Of a stretch of DNA of 64,000 nt, positions 54,154-61,586 are shown one piece after another. The notes below the pieces were generated by a model. The model worked only from the letters and a program-made list of their open reading frames with translations. It made no database searches and was not told the DNA's origin. Source of the stretch: Kiritimatiellota bacterium (GTDB lineage: Bacteria; Verrucomicrobiota; Lentisphaeria; Oligosphaerales; JAADHN01); NCBI GenBank assembly GCA_013151865.1, contig JAADHN010000111.1, forward strand, positions 1-64,000, read 5' to 3'. Position numbers and translations under genes: made by a program. The first letter of the stretch is position 1. Each line of letters begins with the position of its first letter.

Positions 54154-55557
54154 TCACCGTGGAGAACGCTCCGGCGCCGCTGCGAGTTCAGGCCAGCGAT
54201 TACGCCATAACGTGATGCGGCCCAAGCGGTCGTACGGAGGATAGACGTGCATTCCACCGGTCACCACGTCCGTCCACCCGTCGCCGTCCACATCACCAAC
54301 GGCGAGGGCGATCAGGTGGGTCGGACTCCGGGCCAGATTCCGGCGCACAAACTGCATTTGTCCGTCGTTCTGGAACCAGACCAGACTCTGTGCATCCGGC
54401 CGCTCCCAAAAGTTGTAGGCACTGCACACCACAATGTCCAAGTCCCCATCGTGATCGAAGTCGGCGGCCCGGGCCACCGACGCGCCGGCGAAGTCCCCGA
54501 TCCGGCGGAACGCGAACCGGAGGTCCCCCTCGTTTTCGAGCCATTGGAGTCCGTGCCACGGCCGGGGTCGAGGCGGAATGTAGTCGAAGGCGTCGCCGTT
54601 GGTGTAGAGCACATCCAGGTCGCCGTCGCGGTCCAGGTCGACCAGATCGATGCCGCTGCTGCCGAAGTCCTCGTTCGTACTGCCGTAGATCAGATGGGTC
54701 CGAAACCCTCCTTTGCCGTCGTTCTCGAAAAGATAGATTTCCTCCCATTCCTGACTGACCAAAGCGACAAAATCGAGGTCGCCATCGCCGTCCACGTCCG
54801 CCACAGGAGTATGAATCGTCCCGGACAAGCGCAACAGGATGTGACTGCGGAACTTCCAGTCCCCCAGGTTTTCCATCCAACGAATCTCACCGTCGTCGTA
54901 TCCGAATTGCCCGACCACAAAGTCGACGTCCCCGTCCCCGTCGAAATCGGCGCCCCGCACATCGGTAACCCGGGCGATACGGTCGACCACCACGCGTCGC
55001 GAAAAATGCCCGTTGCCGTCGTTTTGCAGCACGATGACCGCCCCGATCCGGTCGTTGCTCGGGAACAGGATCCCCATGGAAGCCACCAGCAGATCCAAGT
55101 CGCCGTCACCGTCGACGTCGCACGCTTGCACGTGGGCAGGGGCGGCGACTTCGGACCCGACGAACGTGTCCGTGAACTTTCCGTCCGCCCCTTGCCGCAC
55201 CCAGCCGATCCGGTTTGCCAGATCGTCGCAATACAGGATGTCCAGGCGGCCGTCCCGATCCAGATCGCAAAATGTGACATAGGCAATTCGAGGCGGATCT
55301 TCGGCAGGCCGTCCCACGGGCTTCACTTCCAGAAAAGGAATGGCCGGCGCCGACCGCGCCGATCCGCCGGGGCCAACACCGGGCCCGGCGCCCGACACGC
55401 CCGAGGTCCGTTCCCAGCGCCGGGCAATCTGCCGCCATTGCTCCGACACCGACAACCCCGAATGGCGCGCCTGAATGATGAAGACCAACACCGGAACGCC
55501 CACCACGACCGCAATCCCGAACACCCAGCCCCATGAAATCGGAAGGAATCGTTTCAC
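54154..55557 (-). CDS. Membrane-anchored FG-GAP/VCBS beta-propeller protein (seven repeats)
   Basis: 467-aa protein with one N-terminal membrane helix (WGWVFGIAVVVGVPVLVFII), so the rest faces the periplasm or surface. Seven calcium-binding motifs of the DxDxDGxxD type follow at regular spacing (DLDRDGRLD, DVDGDGDLD, DFDGDGDVD, DVDGDGDLD, DLDRDGDLD, DFDHDGDLD, DVDGDGWTD). They predict a complete seven-bladed propeller of about 360 residues. Start: a GTG at 55557 with GGAG at a good distance; an in-frame ATG farther upstream is less likely. It lies 178 bases after the CuA/polyferredoxin gene on the same strand. Propellers of this kind are often adhesion or redox-partner modules; function unknown. 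Confidence 0.85.
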   Translation of the reverse strand: MKRFLPISWGWVFGIAVVVGVPVLVFIIQARHSGLSVSEQWRQIARRWERTSGVSGAGPGVGPGGSARSAPAIPFLEVKPVGRPAEDPPRIAYVTFCDLDRDGRLDILYCDDLANRIGWVRQGADGKFTDTFVGSEVAAPAHVQACDVDGDGDLDLLVASMGILFPSNDRIGAVIVLQNDGNGHFSRRVVVDRIARVTDVRGADFDGDGDVDFVVGQFGYDDGEIRWMENLGDWKFRSHILLRLSGTIHTPVADVDGDGDLDFVALVSQEWEEIYLFENDGKGGFRTHLIYGSTNEDFGSSGIDLVDLDRDGDLDVLYTNGDAFDYIPPRPRPWHGLQWLENEGDLRFAFRRIGDFAGASVARAADFDHDGDLDIVVCSAYNFWERPDAQSLVWFQNDGQMQFVRRNLARSPTHLIALAVGDVDGDGWTDVVTGGMHVYPPYDRLGRITLWRNRWPELAAAPERSPR

Positions 55558-55735: not shown

Positions 55736-57727
55736 CTACAACCCCGCCGGAGAATCCGCAAAAAACACCACCAGCCAAGCCCCTAATCCCACCAGAAAAA
55801 CGGCGGCAGGACCAAAACCCGCAACCGCCCGACGCGGCTCGCCCATCGCCGCCAACCAGCCGCGCCAACCGCTGCGCAGACCGTAACCCACACCTGCGAG
55901 TATCGCCGTTGTCTGAATCCATGGCAACCCCGAGGGCCAAACCTGGCGCCAGGCCATGTTGGCGGTCCCGAGCAAGTCCCAATTCCAGCCGAAAGGATCG
56001 GACAAAGCCGAAACCGCAAAAGTCAGGTTCGTTACGGCAGGCGCCACGGCAAAAGCCACCCATACCATCAGCCCCATCGGCACGAGCGCCGCGCAGTTCG
56101 CCAGGAACAGACGCCTCAGGGATACCCCGGAATGAACCAGGCAGCGGCCCAAGGCGGCCAAAACCGCCAGGAGCAGGGGGAGACCCAGCAAAGCCACGCC
56201 CCAAAGAACGCTCCAGTATCCCAGGAAAAGGTCCCAGCGTTTGCGGTCCACCAAGTCCACCCAATCCCGACACACGGGCCAGGGCCCGAGGTGAGTGATG
56301 CAGTAAGCGACAGCCAGCACGAGCATGACGACCGCCTGCCAACCCTCGCCGAGCGTCGCCGGCGCCCGCCCCGCCCCAAAGGGACGCACCCAGAGCCCTA
56401 CGTTGTCCGACGCACAGGTCAAGACGCATTCGCCGCAGAGCCCGCAATCGCTGTTCCGGCGCACATCGCCCAGCCGCAACCCATATGGACACGGATAGTT
56501 GTCGCCGGCGCCCCGCAGGCAGGTGCTGACCTTGCATCGTGCGCAAACCCCGGCGTCGCGAGGGCGCATGGCGAGCTTGCCGGTCGTGGCGTACAGCCCG
56601 ACGAACGTGTTGATGGGGCAAACATACCGGCAGAACGCCCGAAGTTCGAAAACCGTGGCGAGAAGGAACGCCGCGGCGGTCGTTCCCAGCAATACCCAGG
56701 CCGTGGCACGAGGAGACGTGGCCAGCAATGTGCTGAACGTCCCCATCCCCAGGAACAGAAAAGTCCGCAGCCAAGCCCCGCTGAGAAACCCGGGCCACGG
56801 ACGCGCGAATCCCGCAAATCTTTTGGCGTTTCCCGGTCGCGGGGCGTGCGCCCGACGCTGCAACAGGTCCCCGAAAAACGGCAACGGACATACGTAACAC
56901 CAAAGCCGGCCGCCCAGCGGCGTCACGAGAACTGTGACCAGGAAGAGCCAAACCACCCAAACCGCCATGACCGCCAGATTTCGCCCCGGCATCTTGGTCC
57001 CGAGAAGCCCGGCCAAAACGACGATATACAGTCCCGCCGTCATGAGCCCGGCCAGCCAGTCACGGACCCTCCGATTGGGATAAAGAGCCTTCAAACGTGG
57101 GAAACGGGCAAACAGGTCGTACTTCAGCACCTCTCCGCCGGCGCCGCTCACCTTTGGACTCGAATCCCGGCCGCCGCTGCCCAAGACGATCCGCAGCACG
57201 CCCAGCACGGGAAGAAGCACCAGCACCGTCAAGGCGCCAAGCAGGAGCCAATTCGGCCAGAGAACGAAATCGCCATGCTCGAACCCGTGCATCGGACCGC
57301 AGTATACGTGACACCGAAATCGGGCTTTGCTGCAAAGTCGGCCCCACCACCCCGAACGCCCGGCGCGGAAGACGACTTGCCGGACACGCTCAGGCAAGAC
57401 CTCGGGGCGACTCGGATGAAAAACCTCGACCAGATTTGTGCCGGGAGTGACCTTGGCGTCGAGGTCGTACTCCTGCAGAAAGAAGCTGTGACCGGTGTCT
57501 CGGGAGTGCATATCGAGCACAATCTCGTCCCCGCGCCGCGCCCGGATCACGTATGGATCGGTTCCGTAGCGAAAGAACTCCATGCGAATTCGCCGCACCT
57601 GCGGCAGCCCATGATCAAGCATCGCTGCGGTCGCACACACCGCGGCCACGGCGCCAAGCATGATCGCCGCCGGTCCGACTCGACCGGTCAAGAAACTCCG
57701 CAAGCTCTTTCGATGCGAGCGCTGCAA
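55736..57727 (-). CDS. CuA-like cupredoxin fused to a NosR/polyferredoxin-like membrane protein
   Basis: 663-aa inner-membrane protein. Residues about 45-155 resemble the cytochrome oxidase subunit II/nitrous-oxide reductase CuA domain: His80 in TGHSFF and C-x3-C-x3-H as Cys139, Cys143, His147 in CHVYCGPMHGFEHGDF. The usual Met ligand three residues after the His is Glu150. Multiple membrane segments and cysteine clusters of the NosR/RdxA polyferredoxin type follow (WCYVCPLPFFGD, CRYVCPIN, CARCKVSTC, CGLCGECVLTC). It probably moves electrons across the membrane to a periplasmic copper centre. Start: TTG at 57727, five bases after AGGAGG; no nearer ATG fits. Confidence 0.75.
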   Translation of the reverse strand: MQRSHRKSLRSFLTGRVGPAAIMLGAVAAVCATAAMLDHGLPQVRRIRMEFFRYGTDPYVIRARRGDEIVLDMHSRDTGHSFFLQEYDLDAKVTPGTNLVEVFHPSRPEVLPERVRQVVFRAGRSGWWGRLCSKARFRCHVYCGPMHGFEHGDFVLWPNWLLLGALTVLVLLPVLGVLRIVLGSGGRDSSPKVSGAGGEVLKYDLFARFPRLKALYPNRRVRDWLAGLMTAGLYIVVLAGLLGTKMPGRNLAVMAVWVVWLFLVTVLVTPLGGRLWCYVCPLPFFGDLLQRRAHAPRPGNAKRFAGFARPWPGFLSGAWLRTFLFLGMGTFSTLLATSPRATAWVLLGTTAAAFLLATVFELRAFCRYVCPINTFVGLYATTGKLAMRPRDAGVCARCKVSTCLRGAGDNYPCPYGLRLGDVRRNSDCGLCGECVLTCASDNVGLWVRPFGAGRAPATLGEGWQAVVMLVLAVAYCITHLGPWPVCRDWVDLVDRKRWDLFLGYWSVLWGVALLGLPLLLAVLAALGRCLVHSGVSLRRLFLANCAALVPMGLMVWVAFAVAPAVTNLTFAVSALSDPFGWNWDLLGTANMAWRQVWPSGLPWIQTTAILAGVGYGLRSGWRGWLAAMGEPRRAVAGFGPAAVFLVGLGAWLVVFFADSPAGL

Positions 57728-58223
57728 AACAACCTCCTGAATTCACACCTGCTGCGGCATCCCGTTCGACCGAGAACGCCCCGGCCGGCGAAGACCACCG
57801 GGCGTAACGCCACGAAGTCGTGCGTGCACGGAATCCGACCCCGGCCGGTCGATGGTGCGGGCTGCAGCCCGCTTACGGCGCAGAGGCACATCCCCACATC
57901 GACGCCCAGAGGGGCGGGACCGCCCGAAACTCCGACTGCGCTCCGGTTGGTTGACGCAAAACAGCCCGGCAAATCGCGACGCCGACAATCGGGGTGCGAG
58001 CGGGCGGATTGACTTCCTGCGAAAAGAGGCATACCATAGGCCAAGGTTGGACACCGGTCGAGCGTCCGCCGGACAAATCCCGGCCGGATCACCGCGGCGC
58101 GCGGTTCCCGAATGGGCGACCGATTCTCGAGTCCACAGGACCGGACCCGGACTCCAGGCTGATTCTGCCGAGTCTCGAAGTATTCCGGACTTTCCGGGAA
58201 GTACTGCAGCAAAGAGACCGAAA
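57728..58223. other. Divergent intergenic region
   Basis: 496 bases between the CuA/polyferredoxin gene (-) and the large barrel protein gene (+). Open frames on both strands give basic, Arg/Pro-rich peptides without family character. No copy of the dispersed repeat is present. No promoter was assigned. Confidence 0.4.
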
Positions 58224-61200
58224 ATGGACATTACCGCTTTGACGCTGGTCGCCAGTCTGGCGGCCGCCACGTCCGCGAAACCGGCATACGAGGCCGGTTT
58301 CGCCGACGTGCCCGCCTACACCGTCGAATCCGACCGCTTGACGGCCACCGTTCGCTACCGTACTCCGAGCACCGGGGACACGGTTCGTCTTCACTGCGAA
58401 ATGAAATCCGGCACGGGCGCTTACCTCGCAGGCCGCGAAAAACGTGTCCGCGGTACGGGCACGGTCCGGTTCGTTTTTGCCGTACCGACCTCCGCCATGG
58501 CCGCCCGTGTCCGTCTCGTGGTTTGGATGGGCGAACGCTGGGATCGGTCGCTGTGCCCGCTCGTCCGCTCGCCCCTGATCGAAATCTACTCGAAGCATCG
58601 CGCCAACCGCCTGCGCCGGATGAAACAGGATGCGCCGGTTTTGCTCAAGAGAATTCGCCGACTGAACCGGACCGGCGCGCGTGCAGTGGGAGTCTACCAG
58701 GCCGGCGCCTCGAAATGGCCGCCGTCGATTGCGACGAACCTGGTCCGCGACTTGCGCGCTGCGAGGATGCCCGCCATGATGATGCCGCCGTCCGCGTTGG
58801 CCAACCCATTTGTCCTGCGACGGAATGTGTTCGCCGCCATCGTCCTTGTGGATTCCGGCGTGCTTCCCGCCGAGGCCGGAAGGTCCTTGTCGGGTTATCT
58901 GCGGGAAGGCGGCGCACTTGTAAGCCTCGGCGGCCCCGCATTCCAGACCGCGCTTTGGCGCCACGGCACGGTATGGCTCACCAGGGACGAATACCGACGT
59001 GTGGTTACAGCCGGACTGCCCGTGCGGATCGTCCGCCGTTTCGAACGTGGCGCAGGGGGAGAATGGGAGCGGTCTTCCAACAACCTTACCGCCAAGTCAC
59101 GGGTGATTTGGACGCCGGACGGGGCGCCCGCCGACTCCGGCGGCGCCGTCCGAATCGAGATTCGCGACCTCAACGGTTGGGACACATTCACGATGCCCCC
59201 TGTCGAACGCTTTCCGTTCAGTGAGAAGGCCGCCTGGACTTCATTCTGGGCAAAGGGGGACCGTCGCACGTCGGAGCTGGCCGTGGAATGGCGGGAAAAA
59301 GACGGATCCCGCTGGATTGCAACGACCCCGATCACAACCGACTGGCGGCAGTACGTGCTCCCTCCCGGAGCATTTCGATCCTGGCAGAATACGGCCAAGG
59401 GCCGCGGAGGCCCCGGAGACGCCTTTCACCCTCAAAACGCCGAGACACTGATATTCGGACTGGCTTTCACACACACACGTACCGTGGGACAGGGGGACCA
59501 CACGGTCTGGCTCGACGCCATCGGGGTCGCCGAAGCCCCCGGACCGGACATCGACCCCGAAGCATTGCGAGGCGAACCGCTCACCGCCCCAACGATGGAA
59601 GGGATCTCACCGCCTTGGAAACTCTACCCGGTGACAAATGCGGCCGCGTTCCGTCCGACCCCCGGTCAAACTTGGTTCGACGGCCTCCTGCCAAAGCTGG
59701 GCAAGACCTTGTACTCACCTTATGCGCGCCCCGCGGGGACCGGCATCCACAAATCGAGGCCGTGGCGGTTCCAATCCGTAATCGAATACCGAGATCGCGA
59801 TGGCCGGTTCTGCGGTTCCGCGGCGGCTGTCCTGCTGCACGCACCGTCCACCGGAAAGCTCCCTGCAGCCGCCACCGTTCCGGTCGCAGATCCCGCCTTT
59901 TTCAACGCATCCCCCGGGCGCGACCTGGTCGTCTCCCTGATTCGACGCCTCCTCGACGGGGTATTCCTGTATGAAGGCGGTGCCGCATGGTATGCCTCGT
60001 TCGGCAAGGAGCGCATCCCCATCGGCGCCCAAGTGATCAACCGCGGCCGCCAAACGACCGCTGTCGAGGTGCTGTTGCGTGTGACGGCCCCCGACGCAAC
60101 TGTGGCGTGGGAACGAAGCCGCAAACTGACGGTCGCGCCCGGGGCCGTACTCCGAGTCGAGGACGCGTGGGACGCCCCGGCCCCCGGCGGGCGCGGCGCC
60201 AAGTACTCGGTAACCTGCGAACTCCGCAGCGGCGGGAGAACCATCGACCGCCTTGAACACCAACTCCGGCTGGTGGCGCCGCCCGCACGCCCCGCTTATG
60301 TCGTTCGCACGAACGGCGGGTTCCGCCTGAACGAACGCCCGTGGTTCGTGCACGGAGTCAATTACATGCCATCGTCGGGGATCGCGCTCGATTTGACCGA
60401 CAACTTTGAATTCTGGCTCGATCCGGCGCCGTATGACCCGGAAATCATCCAACGCGACTTGGACGACATCAAACGTATCGGCTTCAACTCGGTCAGCGTC
60501 TTTCAATACTATCGTTCCATGAGATCGCGCAATCTCCTCGACTTGCTGGAACGCTGTCGTGAGCATGGACTGAAGGTCAACCTTTCCCTGCGCCCCGGGA
60601 CGCCGCTGGATTTTCATTGGGCTGAAGTCCGGGAAATGATAACAACGGCAAGACTGGCCGGAAACGACACGGTATTCGCCTATGACCTGGCCTGGGAACC
60701 GTCGTGGGGAAATCACGACCGACGCAAACGCTGGGATCGGGAGTGGGAAAAGTGGATCATCGACCGGTACGGGTCGTTCGACGCCGCGGAAAAGACCTGG
60801 GGCAACCCCGTCCCGCGCGACGGCCAGGGACGGGTGACCAACCCCAGCGACAAAGAGGTCGCACACGATGGCCCGTGGCGCTCGATGGCCGTCGCCTACC
60901 GCGAGTTTTTGAACAGCCTGCTCCATAAGTACTACGGCAAGGCGCGGCAACTTGTGCGAAGCGTCGACCCCCACCACTTGGTGAGCTTCCGGATGAGCAT
61001 TGCGGGCGACCCCACCGTGGGACAGGGCGGCATGCCCTATGATTTTGCCGGGTTGGCCCATGCCGTCGACATCTTGGAACCTGAAGGATACGGCCGGATT
61101 GGAGATTGGGACCGCGTGAAGCCCGGATGGTTCACCGCAGCATACGCCCGGTGCGTGGCCCCGGACCTTCCCGTGATGTGGGCAGAGTTCGGTTGCTCGA

Positions 61201-61586
61201 TCTGGGACCGGGGCCGGATGAGACCCAATCCGGATGCACTCCGATTTCAGGGCCGTTTCCTGGACGATTTCTATCGGATGGTGTACCTTTCCGGGGCGGA
61301 CGGAAGCGTCGTCTGGTGGTTCCCCGGGGGATACCGGTGGAACGAGCGGAGCGACTACGGTATCCTCAACCCTGACCGTACCTGGAGACCCGCCACGCGG
61401 ACCATCGCGCGCTGGGCCCCAAAACTTCTCGCCCCCCGAAAGCGTCCCGAACCGAACGCTTGGCTGGAATTCGACCGACGCGACTACGCCGATGGCATTC
61501 GGGGCATCTATCGGGACCTGGAAAAACAGTTTTTTGGCATGATTGATGCACACCGGTTTCCCGGGCTGCGCGAGCGCCGCCGGTGA
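58224..61586 (+). CDS. Large GH-A-clan glycosidase-like protein, probably secreted
   Basis: 1120-aa protein. The N-terminal 20 residues (ITALTLVASLAAATSAKPAY) resemble a weak signal peptide. Residues about 80-700 are beta-rich domains of unknown type. A TIM-barrel segment begins with FVHGVNYMPSSGIALDL and IKRIGFNSVSVFQYYR, with acid/base Glu in DLAWEPSWGNHDRR and nucleophile-type Glu in VMWAEFGCSIWD. These fit clan GH-A (GH2/GH5/GH42-like). The segment DGSVVWWFPGGYRWNERSDYG follows, and the end is basic. Start: ATG at 58224; the frame is open for 370 bases earlier without protein character. Substrate unknown. Confidence 0.78.
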   Translation: MDITALTLVASLAAATSAKPAYEAGFADVPAYTVESDRLTATVRYRTPSTGDTVRLHCEMKSGTGAYLAGREKRVRGTGTVRFVFAVPTSAMAARVRLVVWMGERWDRSLCPLVRSPLIEIYSKHRANRLRRMKQDAPVLLKRIRRLNRTGARAVGVYQAGASKWPPSIATNLVRDLRAARMPAMMMPPSALANPFVLRRNVFAAIVLVDSGVLPAEAGRSLSGYLREGGALVSLGGPAFQTALWRHGTVWLTRDEYRRVVTAGLPVRIVRRFERGAGGEWERSSNNLTAKSRVIWTPDGAPADSGGAVRIEIRDLNGWDTFTMPPVERFPFSEKAAWTSFWAKGDRRTSELAVEWREKDGSRWIATTPITTDWRQYVLPPGAFRSWQNTAKGRGGPGDAFHPQNAETLIFGLAFTHTRTVGQGDHTVWLDAIGVAEAPGPDIDPEALRGEPLTAPTMEGISPPWKLYPVTNAAAFRPTPGQTWFDGLLPKLGKTLYSPYARPAGTGIHKSRPWRFQSVIEYRDRDGRFCGSAAAVLLHAPSTGKLPAAATVPVADPAFFNASPGRDLVVSLIRRLLDGVFLYEGGAAWYASFGKERIPIGAQVINRGRQTTAVEVLLRVTAPDATVAWERSRKLTVAPGAVLRVEDAWDAPAPGGRGAKYSVTCELRSGGRTIDRLEHQLRLVAPPARPAYVVRTNGGFRLNERPWFVHGVNYMPSSGIALDLTDNFEFWLDPAPYDPEIIQRDLDDIKRIGFNSVSVFQYYRSMRSRNLLDLLERCREHGLKVNLSLRPGTPLDFHWAEVREMITTARLAGNDTVFAYDLAWEPSWGNHDRRKRWDREWEKWIIDRYGSFDAAEKTWGNPVPRDGQGRVTNPSDKEVAHDGPWRSMAVAYREFLNSLLHKYYGKARQLVRSVDPHHLVSFRMSIAGDPTVGQGGMPYDFAGLAHAVDILEPEGYGRIGDWDRVKPGWFTAAYARCVAPDLPVMWAEFGCSIWDRGRMRPNPDALRFQGRFLDDFYRMVYLSGADGSVVWWFPGGYRWNERSDYGILNPDRTWRPATRTIARWAPKLLAPRKRPEPNAWLEFDRRDYADGIRGIYRDLEKQFFGMIDAHRFPGLRERRR

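Follow-up and report, generated by a model that had tools for sequence, protein, structure and literature searches.

A CuA-like domain with glutamate at the methionine position, fused to a membrane polyferredoxin and encoded beside an FG-GAP propeller in a Kiritimatiellota bacterium

We found, in the genome of a Kiritimatiellota bacterium (assembly GCA_013151865.1), a gene that joins a CuA-type cupredoxin domain to a membrane polyferredoxin, with glutamate in the place of the methionine ligand. Judging from sequence comparison, the product is real and conserved, with a CuA-like domain on a membrane polyferredoxin. The window, meaning the whole stretch of DNA that was analysed, is the first 64,000 nucleotides of contig JAADHN010000111.1, and coordinates below refer to it. 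The gene and the parts of its product are as follows.

55736..57727, minus strand: fused Glu-type CuA-domain polyferredoxin gene, 663 aa, TTG start at 57727 (homologues L014, L064 and L071)
57733..57738, minus strand: ribosome-binding site AGGAGG, 5 bases before the TTG start, read from the sequence
57611..57679, minus strand: N-terminal membrane anchor, residues 17-39, from hydropathy (helix 18-36 in the AlphaFold2 model)
57257..57598, minus strand: CuA-type cupredoxin domain, residues 44-157, predicted periplasmic (profiles, AlphaFold2 model, PDB fold matches)
57488..57490, minus strand: first position of the CuA ligand set, His80, unchanged in 15/15 aligned domains
57278..57313, minus strand: copper loop C139-HVY-C143-GPM-H147-GF-E150, with Glu at the Met position (sequence, alignment, profile)
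56885..56899, minus strand: first membrane cysteine motif CX2CP, residues 277-281 (sequence, alignment)
56615..56632, minus strand: second membrane cysteine motif CX3CP, residues 366-371 (sequence, alignment)
56414..56545, minus strand: eight-cysteine ferredoxin segment, residues 395-438, two predicted [4Fe-4S] clusters (sequence, alignment)
55757..56353, minus strand: C-terminal helical membrane bundle, residues 459-657 (model; signature SDPFGWNWDLxGTA)

The AlphaFold2 model of the protein has a mean pLDDT of 77 and a pTM of 0.83. Most of the N-terminal domain lies at 84-96; the ligand-bearing copper loop (residues 141-150) is at 53, a low-confidence value, and the eight-cysteine segment is poorly modelled. 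Upstream of the operon, on the plus strand at 57852-61586, lies a divergent ORF of 1244 aa whose sole match, to beta-galactosidase-like GH42, stays below threshold; it may encode a glycoside hydrolase.

An earlier note, made from the sequence without database searches, had proposed an N-terminal CuA-type domain with ligands at H80, C139, C143 and H147, and these residues are where it placed them. When the window's 615 six-frame ORFs were searched with a profile of eleven Met-type CuA domains, from which every Glu-type sequence had been excluded, the fused ORF alone matched, with E = 1.8e-15. This profile aligns C139, C143, H147 and E150 to the C, C, H and M columns, so that Glu150 does stand in for methionine, as the note had read it. 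When a two-sequence profile of the domain (the fused protein and a 54%-identical homologue, the first two N-terminal domains obtained) was compared with the PDB, all 10 matches were CuA domains, the best with E = 1.9e-4. The Foldseek search of the model against the PDB returned CuA domains or COX2 subunits at the top 16 ranks, followed by a cupredoxin, further COX2 subunits and NosZ. The better alignment to a metal-free cupredoxin that the note had allowed for was thus not found. Pfam COX2, however, does not match the fused protein itself, as it might not if a cupredoxin-like domain of other ancestry resembled CuA by chance. Given the leave-out profile, the CuA matches by both PDB profile and fold, and the position of the domain as sister group of Met-type CuA1 proteins (see below), such a coincidence is very improbable.

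The domain combines the cupredoxin fold with the H...Cx3Cx3H pattern. It departs from canonical CuA at two points: glutamate occupies the Met position of Hx2M, and the first His and first Cys are separated by 58 residues and not by 34 as in the canonical Hx34C (PMC6189053), a difference of about 24 extra residues. Since one defining ligand is missing, we call the domain CuA-like and not canonical CuA. The closest solved structures, COX2 CuA domains (T. thermophilus ba3, 2CUA), share its fold and four Cys/His ligands but have methionine, the shorter loop and an oxidase to serve; in the present genome there is no COX1 match, and Pfam COX2 stays below cut-off for the fused protein. PmoD, a CuA found outside oxidases and N2O reductase with an unusual ligand set, is built differently: its CuA forms between two monomers with a Cx7MxH motif, whereas here the canonical positions are kept (PMC6189053).

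The Glu-type group comprises four proteins: that of the window, one from the same order (G017), and those of G594 and G769 (phylum of a Phycisphaerae bacterium, Planctomycetota). Separate searches of two phyla thus indicate that the fusion spans both; among nine genomes of the class of the best Planctomycetota homologue, there were no further fused copies. All four copper loops read C-HV[YW]-C-GP[ML]-H-[GA]F-E-[HQ]. In the alignment of 15 CuA-type domains the H, C, C and H ligands are invariant, and in the Met column 4/4 fused proteins have Glu, whereas 11/11 separate CuA proteins have Met. Methionine is therefore not restored in fused homologues, a possibility that the note had raised, and is found only in the separate, more distant relatives. 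The note's other candidate for the Met position, His151, is ruled out: residue 151 is His in two of the fused proteins and Gln in two, and so is not a conserved substitute ligand, whereas Glu150 is invariant.

In a tree of the CuA domains computed without the Met/Glu ligand column, the four Glu-type domains form one clade (98/96), whose sister is the CuA1 proteins of operons in which CuA and polyferredoxin are separate genes (91/87). The simplest history that these relationships suggest is that Met gave way to Glu once, along with the joining of a formerly separate CuA gene to that of the polyferredoxin. Between the first His and the first Cys there are 58 residues in all four fused proteins, 51 in the nearest Met-type CuA1 (locus L065) and 34-41 elsewhere.

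These departures raise the alternative that the domain has ceased to be a binuclear CuA and instead holds another metal site (mononuclear and red-copper-like, or Zn) or has a structural or sensing role, the protein being a redox sensor or assembly factor. The defining Met is gone in 4/4, the spacing is 58 against 34, the copper loop is poorly modelled, and Glu-liganded cupredoxin sites do exist, for example in nitrosocyanin. Yet both Cys and both His have been kept in the fused homologues across two phyla at about 50% identity, the longer loop is already partly present (x51) in the Met-type CuA1 of L065, and changes of the axial Met in engineered CuA sites do not destroy the binuclear core. 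On balance we consider loss of the binuclear centre unlikely.

The joining of the domain to membrane ferredoxin clusters, which the note had also described, stands up well: the polyferredoxin part has a Pfam Fer4_5 match over cut-off, and 12 cysteines are conserved throughout the fused and split relatives, with the sole exception of a Cys-to-His replacement in one split relative. The signature of the C-terminal bundle is common to split and nap-linked relatives. In a tree of the polyferredoxin core, nine CuA-linked proteins form one clade (100/100) apart from 24 relatives, and each of the nine is either fused to a CuA domain or has a CuA gene as its neighbour in that genome. The 24 relatives show no CuA match in the fetched loci, although the flanks of most extend for about 1.5 kb and genes farther away are missed; several lie in nap-type clusters. 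A scan of genome contigs returned only CuA-less polyferredoxin relatives, and the plasmid collection gave four weak matches that do not cover the CuA domain. Three further polyferredoxins from the window's phylum (L010, L011 and L012; two from genomes of 0.9 Mb, one from a larger genome) follow an N-terminal membrane domain that by eye resembles the caa3 assembly factor CtaG.

Assignment of this part to the "NosR/RdxA type" proved too specific. NosR together with the CuA of NosZ offers the nearest analogy, a membrane Fe-S polyferredoxin serving a periplasmic CuA (here predicted), and in NosZ too the CuA domain is paired with a seven-bladed propeller. Unlike NosR, however, the fused protein has no FMN domain (no such Pfam or NCBIfam match), and its first membrane motif is CX2CP where two CX3CP motifs would be expected. 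In addition, CuA lies on the polyferredoxin itself with Glu for Met, the propeller is of the FG-GAP type, and NosZ was not found (no nos_propeller match, for which controls are weak, and no COX2-family CuA match). The best NCBIfam match is to NapH/MauN, which share the two membrane cysteine motifs and two predicted clusters, but at 39.8 bits it falls far below the TIGR02163 cut-off of 213; the CX2CP motif, the extra C-terminal bundle, the CuA domain and the lack of a Nap enzyme found adjacent are further differences. The CcoG/RdxA/FixG cupric reductases are likewise copper-linked membrane polyferredoxins, but the TIGR02745 score is 18.8 bits against a cut-off of 316.7, and CcoG carries a C-terminal Ig-like domain where the fused protein has an N-terminal CuA domain.

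The closest relatives of the fused gene are split operons (L065 and L069), in which CuA1, polyferredoxin and CuA2 are neighbouring genes. At L065:6811-17238 the genes after this trio encode plastocyanin-like proteins, a pair of MauG-type di-haem peroxidases, a Rieske subunit and a molybdoenzyme of the AioA/IdrA type (429 bits for TIGR02693, cut-off 359). Gene content separates iodate reductase clusters (idrABP1P2) from those of arsenite oxidase (PMC8692401), and the downstream genes at L065 have the content of idrABP1P2. It is thus possible, from gene content, that the CuA-polyferredoxin genes there are the electron partner of an iodate reductase. In another locus, L066, CuA2 is fused to cytochrome c. 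At L070:2-2188 a GltD/NfnB-type NAD(P)H oxidoreductase is fused in frame to the C-terminal half of a polyferredoxin with a CuA gene next to it, an arrangement that suggests NAD(P)H in the cytosol as the electron donor; this contig starts inside the fusion gene, and there is a small chance that the join is a metagenome assembly error.

Downstream of the fused gene lies a second gene on the same strand.

54154..55557, minus strand: membrane-anchored FG-GAP seven-bladed propeller gene, GTG start at 55557 (domain match, homologue, model)
55474..55530, minus strand: membrane anchor of the propeller (sequence)

The GTG start was chosen by comparison with a homologue; a longer reading from a TTG at 55761 is probably spurious. 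In all three fused loci whose downstream sequence can be read, the propeller gene comes next, after 178, 38 and 14 bases. The contig of the fourth, G769, ends inside the fused gene, and no propeller homologue was found in its assembly. Of 198 genomes in the window's class, only the two that carry the fused gene give a strong propeller match; there is one weaker relative besides. The co-occurrence that the note had suggested looking for is therefore present in every testable locus, and the fused protein appears as half of a conserved two-gene unit and not as the stand-alone protein of the note.

The propeller model has a propeller fold, whose nearest solved folds are CRTAC1 and aldos-2-ulose dehydratase; at 12-17% identity their function is not transferable. 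Three relatives (L072:1447-3102, L074:1441-3129 and L075:1147-2661) join an N-terminal cytochrome c CxxCH haem motif to the same FG-GAP propeller. Since the partner propeller has no CxxCH motif and adjoins a CuA protein, CuA may stand in for the haem. Histidines 142, 249 and 414 of the propeller fall at matching places in its repeats, and all three partners keep them. They are replaced in part by Arg, Asp or Cys in the cytochrome-fused relatives, so that a CuZ-like seven-histidine site is unsupported. The window's genome holds another polyferredoxin-propeller pair: on the window's contig at about 65-71 kb (L015:811-6596), a second polyferredoxin gene precedes genes for a PQQ-type propeller with a membrane anchor and for a NuoE/NuoF-type protein.

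The note had seen no oxidase or N2O reductase catalytic subunit nearby, and this extends to the genome as a whole. In the 97%-complete assembly there is no match to COX1 or COX2, both of which were found in control genomes, and none to nos_propeller, for which the test is weaker, as no control genome exceeded the cut-off. A partner oxidase for the CuA domain is therefore unlikely.

We favour, with moderate confidence, a reading in which the protein is a transmembrane electron conduit from a cytosolic reductant to a Glu-ligated CuA that serves the propeller. Cytosolic NAD(P)H or ferredoxin, acting through a partner enzyme, would reduce the two [4Fe-4S] clusters, with quinol as a possible alternative source; electrons would then traverse the membrane bundle with its CX2CP and CX3CP motifs to the periplasmic CuA-type centre, where Glu150 replaces the Met ligand. 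This centre would exchange electrons with the co-encoded membrane-anchored propeller or with something bound to it. The reading is favoured because the four Cys/His ligands of CuA are invariant and all redox cysteines of the polyferredoxin are kept, because the CuA-linked polyferredoxins form one clade, because the split relatives sit in electron-transfer settings, and because the propeller adjoins in 3/3 testable fused loci. Against it, the copper loop is modelled with low confidence, no redox centre is recognised in the propeller, whose relatives also occur away from polyferredoxins, and the L065 cluster could either oxidise arsenite or reduce iodate, for which electrons would flow in opposite directions. 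The copper links of CcoG and of other CuA proteins in the class, taken up below, also count against it, and the Glu-type group has just four sequences, one of them truncated at a contig end. Architecture, ligand conservation, a single origin of the glutamate, the conserved gene pair and the lack of detected oxidase genes can be read from the sequences; metal loading, topology, direction of flow and the propeller as partner are what we infer from them. Of the note's proposal of a stand-alone electron conduit, the conduit part is supported, and the stand-alone part is not, given the conserved propeller gene.

The main rival is a role in copper handling, with the protein acting as a CcoG-like cupric reductase in which Fe-S electrons reduce Cu(II) at the CuA-like site, the glutamate makes that site favour Cu(II), and the propeller is a periplasmic accessory. 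CcoG, itself a polyferredoxin, has been shown to reduce Cu(II) (reviewed in PMC7558416). In three genomes of the window's class (L018/L024, L019/L025 and L020/L026), Met-type CuA proteins that stand alone are encoded within or next to Cus-type operons for copper efflux, with CusA/CusB and YHS proteins, each CuA gene adjoining one for an NQR2/RnfD-like membrane protein (a weak Pfam match, tested in L024); these loci suggest a CuA and membrane redox module in copper homeostasis. In Natronorubrum daqingense, a distant archaeal polyferredoxin homologue (24% identity; L079, plasmid NZ_CP019329.1) lies among genes for two P-type ATPases, CcdA, TlpA and SCO, and some polyferredoxin relatives carry what by eye are YHS-like metal domains. 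However, no copper gene was seen to adjoin the fused gene in those loci that were read, the split operons lie near respiratory genes and encode two CuA proteins, and the CcoG score is far below its cut-off. A copper-handling role therefore seems rather improbable to us, and we retain the electron conduit as the preferred reading.

In the literature searched, most of which lay outside subscription journals, we found neither the fused architecture nor a naturally occurring Met-to-Glu CuA described. If it operates as proposed, the conduit is probably a previously undescribed way to move electrons across a membrane. CuA has been described in terminal oxidases and N2O reductase, and PmoD has one with a different ligand set; in the present protein a CuA-type domain is built directly onto a transmembrane iron-sulphur chain, and no heme-copper oxidase genes were detected in the organism. 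The CuA-polyferredoxin clade is also tied to an iodate/arsenite-oxidase-type cluster, for which it offers a candidate electron partner. Our more tentative suggestion, which may well prove wrong, is that a natural Glu-axial CuA wired to cytosolic Fe-S clusters forms with the FG-GAP propeller a periplasmic redox system that depends on neither oxidases nor N2O reductase, in hosts without heme-copper oxidases. The axial ligand, changed apparently once in evolution, is the one that protein engineers mutate to tune CuA. If the domain binds copper, these proteins would provide a natural test of that ligand's role, and would point to a form of electron transfer in the periplasm that has gone unrecognised in uncultured bacteria from two phyla.
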